DNA from: Phycisphaerales bacterium UBA2421
Lineage (GTDB): Bacteria > Planctomycetota > Phycisphaerae > Tepidisphaerales > Tepidisphaeraceae
Direction: 5' to 3'
DNA length: 64,000 bases
Assembly (NCBI GenBank): GCA_002343075.1
Contig: DDRH01000005.1
Coordinates: 70,050-134,049 of the forward strand
In this document: positions 18,382 through 21,154 of the stretch, one piece after another
How the letters are laid out: each line of letters opens with the position of its first letter
How positions within the stretch are numbered: position 1 is the stretch's first letter
Made by a program: the position numbers and the translations under genes
The notes under the pieces: generated by a model
The model's database searches: none
What the model was told of the DNA's origin: nothing
What the model saw: the letters and a program-made list of their open reading frames with translations, nothing else

Positions 18382-18458
18382 TAGCATGGATTTCCAACCT
18401 ATTCTTCGTTCCATCAAGCAAACTGATGGGAAAAAGAGCGGTTAGAAACCCGTTCTAC
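18381..18458 (+). repeat. Degenerate REP pair at convergent gene ends
   Basis: Two facing REP-like units: GTAGCATGGATTTCCAACCT... (18381-18408) and ...GGTTAGAAACCCGTTCTAC (18431-18458). They match the REP arms at 19185-19212 and 19827-19854 with several substitutions. The kelch gene stop (TAG, 18379-18381) and the helicase stop (TAG, 18457-18455) both overlap the outer GTAG ends, so the pair exactly fills the space between the two convergent genes and may also act as a transcription end. Confidence 0.75.
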
Positions 18459-21154
18459 GAACGCACTTCCACAACCTTGCACTCGGGCAGCGCGTTCAAG
18501 AACATCTTACCGTACCGTTTGGTCTTAACCCGGCTATCAAGGATCACCACAATCCCGCGGTCGGTTTTGCTTCGGATGAGTCTTCCGAAGCCCTGCTTCA
18601 GCTTGATCACTGCTTCGGGTACGGAGTAGTCCATGAATGGGTTGCCGCCGGCGGCGCGGACCGCTTCCAGTCGGGCTTCGACCACAGGTTCATCGGGCAC
18701 GGCAAATGGCAGCTTGACGATGATGACATTGCGAAGGGCTTCGCCTTGCACGTCGATGCCCTGCCAGAAGCTGCTGGTGCCAAACAGCACAGCATCCTTG
18801 GTGGATCGAAACCGATCCAGAAGCACCTTCCGCGGTGCGCCCTGGCCCTGGACCAGCAATGGCAAACCAATCGCCGCTATCTCTCGCTCCAGCCGGGTGG
18901 CGCAATCGGAGAGCATTTTGTATGAAGTAAAGAGCACAAACGCGCCGCCGTTGGTTTGCTTCAGATAGTGAACAATCCGCTCCCGCGCCGCTGCCATAAA
19001 TCGGAGTTCATCCGAAGGCTCCGGCAACCCAGCCTCAATGTAAAGCGTGGCCTGTTGCGAATAATCAAACGGCGAACCGAGTTGTAGCGTCACCGGGCTA
19101 TCCAGCCCGAGCCGGGTGGAGATGTAGGAAAATGCTGATGAGGTCGCACGGGCGGCCCTTCCGTGAGCATGACGTGACTCGCCCGTAGCATGGGTTTCCA
19201 ACCCATTCTTCTCTTCCGTGACTCCAGTCCCCACCCACTTCCAGTTGGCAAGTCCTGCTTGGACCGGATTCTGTAAGACGTATTCAATCTGATTGCTTAA
19301 GTCTGCAGCATCTCGGATGAGATGGTCATAGGACTCGGCTTGCCAGAAGGTTCCGCTTCGCCCCAATCGTTTGTTGGCTTCGAGCGCAATGTGCCGTTTC
19401 CACGAATGCAAGACACTCGGGAGCGTGTGCTCCTGCAGCGGGCTCACGACAACATGCACATGATTTGGCATAACAACCCACGCGTACAAGCGGTACCGTG
19501 TTCCATCAAAGTGATTTAAGGAGCTTGCAGCCAGTGACGCGACATCATCTCGCGCGAGCCAACACTCACCATGACCGGCGTGTAGCAGTGCTTCCAGCTG
19601 CTCTGAGTACAGCCGCTGCAGTCGCTGCTGCTCAACGACAGAGACGTCCCGACCGGCCGCTGCGGCATTGGCCACGATCGATTCTCGCTCTTGGCGCATT
19701 TTGTCGGCGATGTCGGCTGGAACAGAATCTACAAGTCGGAATGTGACTGCATAGATGCCGTTTGGTGTTGTCCAATGTGGAAGCTTGGCGCCTTGGCGTT
19801 TGTGAATGGTTTCGGTTGACTCAGTGAGAAGAACGGGTTGGAAACCCGTGCTACGTGGAGTTAAGTGTTTTGTGTGTCGCCCAGTACTCAGCGTCGCGCT
19901 CGTCATTACCACGCTGTTGACCTTACCGAATAATTCCTTGCGCAATCCTCCAGCAACATTGATCGGGGCGGCGTGCATGCTGACGCGCCTGGGGGTGCGC
20001 TGGGTGACGTCGAACCAATACACTGCATCGGGCATCGCCTGCATCAGGAGCGCCTCAATTGCGCTCGCGGTCATGGTGATTTTGTCGATGTTGCCGCCCA
20101 ACTCGCTGATCTCTTCTTCGTTCTTAATGCCTGGCAACATTGACTTTAGATTCGCCACCAACTCGCGCAGCTTGGGTGAGAGCGAATTGTTGATGCCCGT
20201 CGGCTCGCGCACCCGACCGTTGCTGCGGCCGTGGGTTTCCTGCCAGTCGGCCACCCGGCCAAAGAAATCTTCGACTTCCATCTGCAGATCAACGATCGAT
20301 TGAATCGCTGGGTTGGCACTCGACCCGTGGGTGCTCAGGAATCCCCGGCCTCGCTTGGTGTCGTACAGGTGGCGCAGCTGGTAGCGCACCGAGTTTTCGC
20401 TCATCCGAATCCCAAAATGCTCCGCCGCCACATCTTCCAGCGTGTGGGCTTCGTCCAAAATCGCCAAGTCATACTTGGGCAAGTAGTTAACACCGGCCAT
20501 GCGGAGCGCCAGGTCGCTGAAAAATAGCGCATGGTTGACGATGAGAATGTTCGCCCCCTGCATCCGCCGCTTGGCCGCCTGCCAGTGGCACGGCTCGTAG
20601 TGGCGGCATTTCTTCCCGAGGCAGTTGCCGTGCTCGGCGCACACCTTGTCCCACACATTCCCGTGCGGCAGCACCGGCAGCGACGCCAGCGAGCCGTCGG
20701 TGGTTGTCTGCGCCCATTCTTCGATCATCCAAAGCGACTGCCGCTCGGCATCGGTCTCGAACAGCATGTTCTGTCGGCCTTGTGCCTGCTCTAACCGCCT
20801 TTTGCACAAGTAGTTATTGCGACCCTTCACCAGCACAGCGCTAAATTCATCCGGATAAACGGATCGAAGCAGCGGGATGTCTTTCTCAATCAGCTGTTCC
20901 TGCAGCGAAATTGTGTGCGTGGAGATGACAACGCGCTTCTTCCGCTTCACCGCTGCCTCGATGGCGGGGAGCAAGTAAGCGAACGACTTACCAACGCCCG
21001 TGCCCGCTTCGACGAGCAGATGGTGCGGCGTGACAAACGCCTCCTCCACCGCCGCGGCCATTTCAAGCTGCTGGGGGCGGTGCTCGTATTTGTCGCCTAG
21101 GCGGCGAGCGATACTGCCTTCGGGGCCGAGGATGTCAGACAACAACGAAATCAC
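18455..21154 (-). CDS. DinG/XPD-family helicase with in-frame RAYT transposase insertion
   Basis: An 899-residue frame from a GTG start. Residues 1-~425 are the first part of an iron-sulfur superfamily 2 helicase: Walker A VEAGTGVGKSFAYLLP, four cluster cysteines (YLCKRR; CAEHGNCLGKKCRHYEPC), DEAHTLEDV and motif III TSATLS. After STG the frame enters a REP arm and a complete REP-associated tyrosine transposase (~434-656), then resumes the helicase at FSYISTRLGLDSP and continues through LFTSYKMLSDC, FGTSSFWQGIDV and QGFGRLIRS to the end. Related helicases are ~650-680 residues without the insert. No stop interrupts the junctions. Whether the fusion is an active helicase is unknown. Confidence 0.9.
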   Translation of the reverse strand: MISLLSDILGPEGSIARRLGDKYEHRPQQLEMAAAVEEAFVTPHHLLVEAGTGVGKSFAYLLPAIEAAVKRKKRVVISTHTISLQEQLIEKDIPLLRSVYPDEFSAVLVKGRNNYLCKRRLEQAQGRQNMLFETDAERQSLWMIEEWAQTTTDGSLASLPVLPHGNVWDKVCAEHGNCLGKKCRHYEPCHWQAAKRRMQGANILIVNHALFFSDLALRMAGVNYLPKYDLAILDEAHTLEDVAAEHFGIRMSENSVRYQLRHLYDTKRGRGFLSTHGSSANPAIQSIVDLQMEVEDFFGRVADWQETHGRSNGRVREPTGINNSLSPKLRELVANLKSMLPGIKNEEEISELGGNIDKITMTASAIEALLMQAMPDAVYWFDVTQRTPRRVSMHAAPINVAGGLRKELFGKVNSVVMTSATLSTGRHTKHLTPRSTGFQPVLLTESTETIHKRQGAKLPHWTTPNGIYAVTFRLVDSVPADIADKMRQERESIVANAAAAGRDVSVVEQQRLQRLYSEQLEALLHAGHGECWLARDDVASLAASSLNHFDGTRYRLYAWVVMPNHVHVVVSPLQEHTLPSVLHSWKRHIALEANKRLGRSGTFWQAESYDHLIRDAADLSNQIEYVLQNPVQAGLANWKWVGTGVTEEKNGLETHATGESRHAHGRAARATSSAFSYISTRLGLDSPVTLQLGSPFDYSQQATLYIEAGLPEPSDELRFMAAARERIVHYLKQTNGGAFVLFTSYKMLSDCATRLEREIAAIGLPLLVQGQGAPRKVLLDRFRSTKDAVLFGTSSFWQGIDVQGEALRNVIIVKLPFAVPDEPVVEARLEAVRAAGGNPFMDYSVPEAVIKLKQGFGRLIRSKTDRGIVVILDSRVKTKRYGKMFLNALPECKVVEVRS
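19185..19212 (+). repeat. REP arm, 3' side of RAYT
   Basis: Plus-strand GTAGCATGGGTTTCCAACCC then ATTCTTCT, the inverted partner of 19827-19854 (26 of 28 bases equal). On the minus strand it encodes KNGLETHATG before helicase sequence resumes. Confidence 0.85.
19827..19854 (-). repeat. REP arm, 5' side of RAYT
   Basis: Minus-strand GTAGCACGGGTTTCCAACCC then GTTCTTCT; CGGGTT and AACCCG form a small hairpin around TCC. It encodes part of the fused protein (RSTGFQPVLL). Confidence 0.85.

Follow-up and report, generated by a model that had tools for sequence, protein, structure and literature searches.

A REP-associated transposase nested in frame in a DinG-type helicase gene, with relatives nested in many conserved bacterial proteins

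The locus

We examined a 64,000-nucleotide stretch (the window) of contig DDRH01000005.1 from Phycisphaerales bacterium UBA2421, in which a REP-associated tyrosine transposase (RAYT), bounded by repetitive extragenic palindromic (REP) sequences, lies in frame inside a DinG/XPD-type helicase gene. The fused open reading frame (ORF), at 18455..21154 on the minus strand, encodes 899 amino acids from a GTG start to a TAG stop (924 from stop to stop). Residues 1-426 (19877..21154, minus) are the N-terminal part of the helicase, with GTGVGKS, DEAH, cysteines 117, 178, 183 and 189, and TSATLS at residue 418. Residues 427-672 (19139..19876, minus) are the inserted segment, where 15/26 genomes of the same family have a short, variable loop, and residues 673-899 (18458..19138, minus) are the C-terminal part, with Helicase_C_2, FSYISTRLGLD from residue 675 and QGFGRLIR. 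This insert of about 250 residues splits a DinG/YoaA-type (XPD-like) helicase after motif III, and the helicase resumes at residue 673-675. Both halves are present with the motifs and four cysteines of this type, and the interrupted protein scores under the equivalog cut-offs (YoaA 608.8 against 680).

The first-pass annotation of this DNA had described an uninterrupted 899-codon frame running from motif III to the end. The frame is real: the fusion recurs, with two residues different, in its nearest database protein (P0001), and the same nesting is present in a one-contig genome of 7.2 Mb (G012). It is indeed uninterrupted to its end, but it does not begin at motif III, as the whole N-terminal half of the helicase comes before.

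Within the insert, a 5' REP arm (19826..19855, minus) with its GTAG tag outward is translated as RSTGFQPV (STGFQPV at residue 435), and a 3' arm (19184..19213, plus), also with its tag outward, is read on the minus strand as NGLETHAT (residues 650-657). The arms form a 30-nucleotide inverted repeat that is 93% complementary, and the hairpin folding of both gives z-scores of -3.95 to -4.58. Between them lies the RAYT (HUH/Y1 transposase) domain (residues 458-640; 19235..19783, minus), identified by a profile match, with the HUH motif N-H-V-H at residues 564-567 (19454..19465, minus) and a putative catalytic tyrosine, Tyr625, in IEYVLQNP (19280..19282, minus). In an alignment of the window's fusion with 27 of the 33 DinG proteins described below (28 fusions), Asn564, His565, His567 and Tyr625 are invariant, as are the helicase motifs and the four cysteines, save the final S of TSATLS. 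The TnpAREP structure 4er8 matches the domain at E 1.4e-4, and among nested relatives those in DnaE and CarB score above the cut-off of 80 of the NCBIfam family REP_Tyr_transpos (NF047646), at 80.7 and 83.5, with one in NadE (P0063) below it at 74.9. The earlier description of an intact transposase with both motifs and two translated REP arms, in frame inside the helicase, was borne out, as was the absence of ATG, GTG and TTG from the 5' arm to codon 486. The nearest such codons are ATG417, inside helicase motif III, and ATG486, inside the RAYT domain.

The window holds six matches to the REP pattern GTAGCRYGGGTTTYCAACCC with up to three mismatches, against 0.01 expected from shuffles. In the whole genome there are 24 exact REP cores against none among reversed controls, and 43 against two when one mismatch is allowed; GTAG precedes most of 30 cores fetched. 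The genome has one RAYT copy of this type.

Host range of nested RAYTs

The inserted region was used as a query against proteins of 0.55-1.75 times its length, and the best 120 of 361 matches, to which the following counts refer, were listed. In 112, both sides of the RAYT are occupied by 60 or more residues of other protein; in 8 it lies nearer than this to an end. The masked hosts cluster into 22 groups, 19 of which have a member flanked on both sides: DinG (33 proteins), valyl-tRNA synthetase (ValRS, 23), a PF18135 protein, alanyl-tRNA synthetase (AlaRS) and NadE (7 each), leucyl-tRNA synthetase (LeuRS, 6), DNA methylase (5), MetH, an NB-ARC/TPR protein and Sua5 (4 each), HsdR and MenF (3 each), four pairs, including IspG, and six singletons, including DnaE. 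These labels derive from Pfam accessions and source names, and NCBIfam confirmed one each of NadE, AlaRS, ValRS and DnaE. The listed IspG (P0002, P0003) and MetH (P0004-P0007) proteins carry two RAYTs each, at two sites, and the two within one protein differ from each other.

CarB and restriction enzymes are also hosts, as found in a contig scan with a stand-alone relative (P0184) as query, which gave 90 relatives, with 80 loci kept. Long frames outside Planctomycetota occur in Lamprocystis purpurea DSM 4197 (an Eco57I-type enzyme), Dolichospermum sp. LEGE 00240 (Eco57I and TaqI_C), an Opitutales bacterium (HsdR), two Akkermansiaceae (LeuRS) and an Armatimonadetes bacterium (CarB). Pfam was run on 15 loci with long frames, so that the host is unchecked for the others; Y1_Tnp was found in 13/15 of these nested loci and in most of the listed relatives. 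Restriction-modification hosts are frequent and spread over several phyla, both HsdR-like (L119, L123, L124, L125, L127) and of Eco57I/MmeI type (L107, L112, L118, L129, L140). Among the contigs with matches are one of 6.5 Mb and one of 7.1 Mb, which belongs to Schlesneria sp. DSM 10557, a cultured carrier with the RAYT nested in HsdR (P0054). No relative was found among viral contigs. Database records with double names exist ('Rad3-related DNA helicase/REP element-mobilizing transposase RayT'), so automatic annotation has already met such fusions.

Insertion sites and needed hosts

Within a host, the RAYT tends to occupy one place. It lies between the YPL segment and VATTRPETMLGD in 23/23 listed ValRS (22 by pattern, P0115 by eye), and after SATL and before FxYIxxRLG in 31/33 listed DinG by pattern, the exceptions being P0037, which is cut off upstream, and P0040, a pattern miss. 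By eye, there is one site per host in seven AlaRS (two without the upstream part), seven NadE, six LeuRS and four Sua5, and likewise for MetH at each of its sites (4+4).

Among the loci fetched, 14 genomes have a RAYT inside ValRS. We searched for valS (TIGR00422) in 22 genomes, including 12 of these 14 (G096 and G270 were left out), and found no second valS match over the curated cut-off in the 12. In 9/12 (G026, G051, G069, G081, G101, G130, G217, G228 and G294) the split ValRS reads through in one frame without a stop, the part beyond the RAYT having been checked separately for G101; its C-terminal portion lies on a separate contig in G129 and G190 and in a different frame in G174. In nine genomes, then, the RAYT-split valS is the only recognised valS over the cut-off. 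The ValRS of the window's own genome has an empty site (L188) and is in two pieces (L188 and L204, on contigs C43 and C35).

Filled and empty helicase sites

The first-pass annotation had proposed a look for the same nesting in related genomes. Seven of 26 genomes of the family (G000, G003, G009, G012, G019, G020 and G021) have a RAYT at the DinG site, and 15 have a helicase without one. In G003 the frame ends past the RAYT on its contig and the helicase C-terminal part is on a different contig; the helicase of G015 is cut before the insertion site, and no match came from G016, G018 and G025. The empty loop varies in length across the family, and in G001 and G022 (genomes with 25 and 29 exact REP cores, respectively) it contains an inverted, translated REP pair and no RAYT. 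On the helicase tree, which leaves out five of the 33 DinG proteins (the fragments P0037, P0068, P0090 and P0114 and the duplicate P0001), the filled or empty state needs nine changes, at least four of which are forced by well-supported branches.

Probable movement and descent of the cassettes

Nearly the same cassette can be found in unrelated hosts. The cassettes of NadE P0063 and AlaRS P0100 are identical at 211/249 aligned residues (85%) between unrelated flanks, and their alignment spans SMGVPPM to HGQDARAT, the outer REPs. Five further comparisons among NadE, AlaRS and ValRS cassettes give 76-87% identity with ends at or near the same points; the six cassette pairs were chosen by hand, 25 of the RAYT pairs having been listed, and it is the quoted pair that ends at both outer REPs. 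On RAYT trees, 22 host labels need 29-30 changes (minimum 21) against 86-87 when shuffled, and therefore the host gene is mostly inherited, yet has changed.

In helicases, one cassette also seems to have taken the place of another at an unchanged site. In the DinG pairs G009/P0117 and G012/P0106, helicases that are 92.1% and 91.3% identical carry RAYTs that are 57.6% and 59.5% identical, close to a background of 55.3 +- 3.8 for RAYTs of 441 pairs with helicases less than 72% alike. G009 and P0117 also differ in their REP peptides. Other pairs, such as P0113/P0116 (97.9% and 93.7%), show co-inheritance. We infer from these sequence comparisons that DinG sites have been refilled with other RAYTs. 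Most DinG copies cluster in the RAYT tree, and the window's RAYT groups weakly with a DnaE-nested one (support 88-91). The nested RAYTs thus depart from the reported habit of known RAYTs, vertical inheritance without movement of their own, although no defining motif of the group is at stake in this; of the earlier characterization as single-copy and chromosomally fixed, the first part fits, with one copy of the type in the genome, and the second does not, given changes of host gene and likely replacement at the site.

Short REP pairs in the window's genome

REP pairs without a RAYT lie in frame in genes for CarB (L020), UvrA (L027) and a CrtI-like phytoene desaturase (L023), the CarB pair being in the same linker as the RAYT of the Armatimonadetes CarB. 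Together with the RAYT-bearing pair in DinG, the in-frame pairs have core spacings of 37, 37, 76 and 643, all 1 mod 3, whereas six other pairs are spaced 33, 33, 33, 34, 41 and 41, of which one is 1 mod 3. The set comprises cores in plus-then-minus order up to 100 nucleotides apart, plus the DinG pair; more distant or oppositely ordered cores on contigs C42, C59 and C67 fall outside it. From these few pairs, sequence spacing suggests that the length of the REP element is not fixed at a multiple of three and that filtering is imposed by the host's reading frame.

The sole 1-mod-3 pair among the six is a perfect inverted pair, GTAGCACGGGTTTTCAACCC, at 55041-55101, which reads RSTGFQPV...GLKTRAT at the end of a 118-residue ORF. 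A degenerate inverted pair, with two and three mismatches to the pattern, fills the gap that separates two convergent genes at 18381..18458 (no strand). One of its GTAG tags contributes the TAG stop codon of the helicase, and the other tag sits at the stop of the plus-strand neighbour, presumably a Kelch-like gene judging by eye from its repeats.

Selection, start codons and frequency

The motifs of the nuclease are retained in nested copies. NHuH is kept in 124/126 RAYT domains of long proteins and in 114/117 stand-alone-size relatives, and the tyrosine is present in 126/126 domains of long proteins (114 by pattern and 12, in which the following NP has changed, by eye). For RAYTs in long frames, with a synonymous divergence (dS) of about 1.1 or less, the ratio of nonsynonymous to synonymous divergence (dN/dS, NG86 method) is 0.10-0.21 in six overlapping pairs from the sets L118/L120/L126 and L119/L123/L124, the hosts of L120 and L126 being unchecked. 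Stand-alone-size relatives gave 1464 matches, 120 of which were listed, some on contigs of about the length of the gene; a median of 23 residues (quartiles 15-38) precedes the domain. By pattern, translated REP peptides are present on both sides of 62/126 domains in long proteins against 7/119 in short ones.

Start codons were counted for distinct domains in frames of at least 450 amino acids with at least 59 residues upstream. Absence of ATG, GTG and TTG from codon -30 to +10 was dropped as a general rule, as only 9/54 nested copies fit it; 35/54 are without ATG.

In a survey of the class, 42/298 genomes match the window's RAYT (E <= 1e-25), with 51 matches, 35 of which are in frames of at least 450 amino acids; among the 24 top-scoring matches no frame is shorter than 471. 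With the stand-alone query, 17/68 matches from 393 genomes of the phylum are in frames of at least 450 amino acids. A long frame is by itself no proof of a host gene.

Interpretation and alternative explanations

We propose that an autonomous REP-RAYT-REP unit resides inside conserved proteins, in loops that tolerate it, where it is translated as a domain and not spliced out, and that it moves between genes and re-enters favoured sites; on the sequence evidence we put the probability of this reading at roughly 0.8. In its favour are the open frames with intact motifs, the occurrence in many hosts, the repeated use of sites, ValRS fusions as sole copies, closely similar cassettes in different genes and a low dN/dS in most of the pairs sampled. 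The cassette would be mobile, and it reads as a single open frame from end to end, with the transposase between its two outer REPs. Insertion would occur as a single-stranded, REP-ended element, as the biochemistry of TnpAREP and IS200 suggests, and only those events would survive that land in a tolerant surface loop or a linker between domains without shifting the frame. Promoter, ribosome site and start codon would come from the host gene, whose product would be one polypeptide consisting of the N-terminal half of the host, a REP-coded linker, the folded HUH/Tyr nuclease, a second linker and the C-terminal half of the host. The host enzyme would presumably keep its function, while the fused nuclease domain could act in trans on GTAG-tagged REPs elsewhere, and short REP pairs without a RAYT would spread, some of them also in frame. 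A needed host gene would shield the element, only exact in-frame loss being tolerated. Under this proposal the element persists because imprecise loss breaks a needed protein, and it would require no promoter or start of its own.

An AlphaFold2 model built from the 28 fusions agrees with a RAYT that folds separately on flexible tethers, though it is no strong proof. Of 18 ten-residue blocks in the RAYT (461-640), 12 have a predicted local distance difference test score (pLDDT) of 68-85 and six of 47-67, and values below 50 occur in the REP-coded stretches 421-463, 646-684 and 686-696 and in part of the helicase (815-850). The fold identity of the RAYT rests on the sequence match together with the model's own confidence.

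Several observations weigh against our proposal. The structural model is of moderate quality overall (mean pLDDT 67.9, predicted template modelling score 0.51), and the window's RAYT scores just below the Pfam gathering threshold for Y1_Tnp (20.2 bits, gathering 23) and below the NF047646 cut-off (72.8 bits). Translation of the fusion and activity of the RAYT are predictions from the genes. Alignment with helicases lacking the insert, the check put forward at the outset for locating the junctions, placed the insert at residues 427-672; exact insertion ends were not seen against an empty site of the same species. G001 and G022 have REPs, yet no RAYT was matched in either at E 1e-25. Two RAYT sites each occur in the PF18135 and DNA-methylase groups, and the RAYT in the ValRS of G101 is at a later place than in other ValRS. 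A ValRS-nested pair, L182/L185, has a dN/dS of 0.47. Host and RAYT identities are correlated (rho 0.22; 34/2000 permutations as high), and although weak, this correlation points to a share of vertical descent. Resolution of the RAYT tree is poor, and one common origin for the DinG copies is neither established nor rejected (approximately unbiased test, p-AU 0.193; 41 of 131 RAYT rows). Finally, 16/51 matches in the class survey and 51/68 in the phylum survey are in frames shorter than 450 amino acids, so that nesting is common and not the rule.

Alternatively, the fusion may be a domesticated one in which DinG unwinds DNA, provides the RAYT with single-stranded REPs and is kept for this benefit. 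DinG is the commonest host and most of its copies group together in the RAYT tree, the helicase motifs are invariant in the 28 fusions, and many further hosts, such as restriction enzymes and DnaE, act on DNA. A partnership specific to the helicase was nevertheless set aside, as most listed hosts (87 of the best 120 of 361) are not DinG, and ValRS, AlaRS, NadE, MetH, IspG and Sua5 have no DNA role; within the family, moreover, the DinG site is empty in 15/26 genomes and its RAYTs have apparently been swapped. The suggestion of DNA-unwinding help made in the first-pass annotation fails as a general reason for the fusion, because the same type of RAYT occurs in many hosts other than helicases (tRNA synthetases, NadE, MetH, IspG, DnaE, CarB and restriction enzymes), and we consider domestication improbable.

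A second alternative is that the RAYT is expressed separately from an internal start, the long frame being a by-product and the host gene dispensable or broken. The short stretch ahead of the domain in stand-alone-size relatives is compatible with this, and a possible start lies within -30 to +10 codons in 45/54 nested copies, which also counts against our proposal. The window's copy, however, has none in that range, and 35/54 copies are without ATG there. An independent RAYT needs no open tail into the host, yet both host halves are in frame, including the sole valS over the cut-off in nine genomes; separate expression therefore appears unlikely.

Removal from the protein or RNA in the manner of an intein or intron would leave a normal host protein, and a nuclease domain positioned in conserved genes does resemble inteins with homing nucleases. 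The intein reading was rejected, since no splicing (HINT) domain is among the five Pfam families matched by the fusion, and the linkers vary in length, unlike fixed splice blocks. The intron reading was likewise rejected, as an Rfam scan over 18000-21600 gave no intron family and one chance match (E 0.98), and removal of either kind is very improbable. An artefact of assembly or binning, conceivable in a 67-contig assembly that is 91% complete, can be dismissed as extremely unlikely in view of the independent, slightly divergent record of this fusion (P0001), the one-contig G012, the matches on 6.5- and 7.1-Mb contigs and the many hosts.

We further lean, with less assurance, towards regarding nested RAYTs as a new class of lifestyle, that of an autonomous, unspliced transposon in needed proteins which depends on its host for expression, moves among favoured loops across several phyla and seeds short in-frame copies. 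A transposon is expected to break the gene that it enters, whereas the intact transposase described here seems to be a tolerated domain of needed proteins, among them the only recognised ValRS of several genomes. If this is true, a selfish gene persists without a promoter, start or splicing of its own, the biology of RAYTs and REPINs covers in-frame elements that move as well as fixed genes, and the insertions amount to a natural inventory of loops able to accommodate an entire additional domain. For annotators, such fusions would be recurrent features and not errors.

Comparison with known systems

We found no published description of RAYTs nested in host proteins at the level of titles and abstracts, most subscription papers being outside this coverage; within that scope, the earlier view of a nested RAYT with translated REPs as an undescribed arrangement holds. 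The parts are known, and the arrangement, at sequence level, extends far beyond one helicase gene.

Inteins with homing nucleases are in-frame elements with a nuclease domain at recurrent sites in conserved genes, and the nested RAYTs share with them an in-frame nuclease element at recurring sites of conserved hosts. Unlike inteins, the nuclease is of HUH/Y1 type, no splicing domain was found in the fusion, and the REP-coded linkers stay in the predicted protein. The TnpA (Y1) transposases of IS200/IS605 belong to the same superfamily (Pfam Y1_Tnp); the element described here differs in being of RAYT type, with inverted REP ends, one copy of its type in this genome and in-frame nesting.

It is already known that REPs can lie in frame within genes, those for DNA repair proteins and tRNA synthetases among them (PMC3733652). 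These intragenic REPs (GTAG/CGTC families) and the Rickettsia palindromic elements are likewise in-frame palindromes in conserved genes, and the REP pairs in CarB, UvrA and the CrtI-like gene are of the intragenic-REP kind. The inserts reported in the available part of that paper are about 20 to 82 residues, with no transposase mentioned there, whereas the insert described here is about 250 residues with a RAYT; nested RAYT copies may be among the intragenic REPs that it surveyed.

The closest system is the RAYT/TnpAREP with its REPs (the REPtron; E. coli TnpAREP, PDB 4er8), with which the element shares the HUH motif and single tyrosine, inverted flanking REPs with GTAG tags, matching REPs genome-wide and one copy of the type in the genome. 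TnpAREP cuts single-stranded REPs, and GTAG matters for cutting (PMC8266576). Known RAYTs, as described in PMC8049555, are single-copy, vertically inherited and not self-copying; in contrast, here the whole unit with its REPs lies in frame within a host gene, and the host gene has changed.

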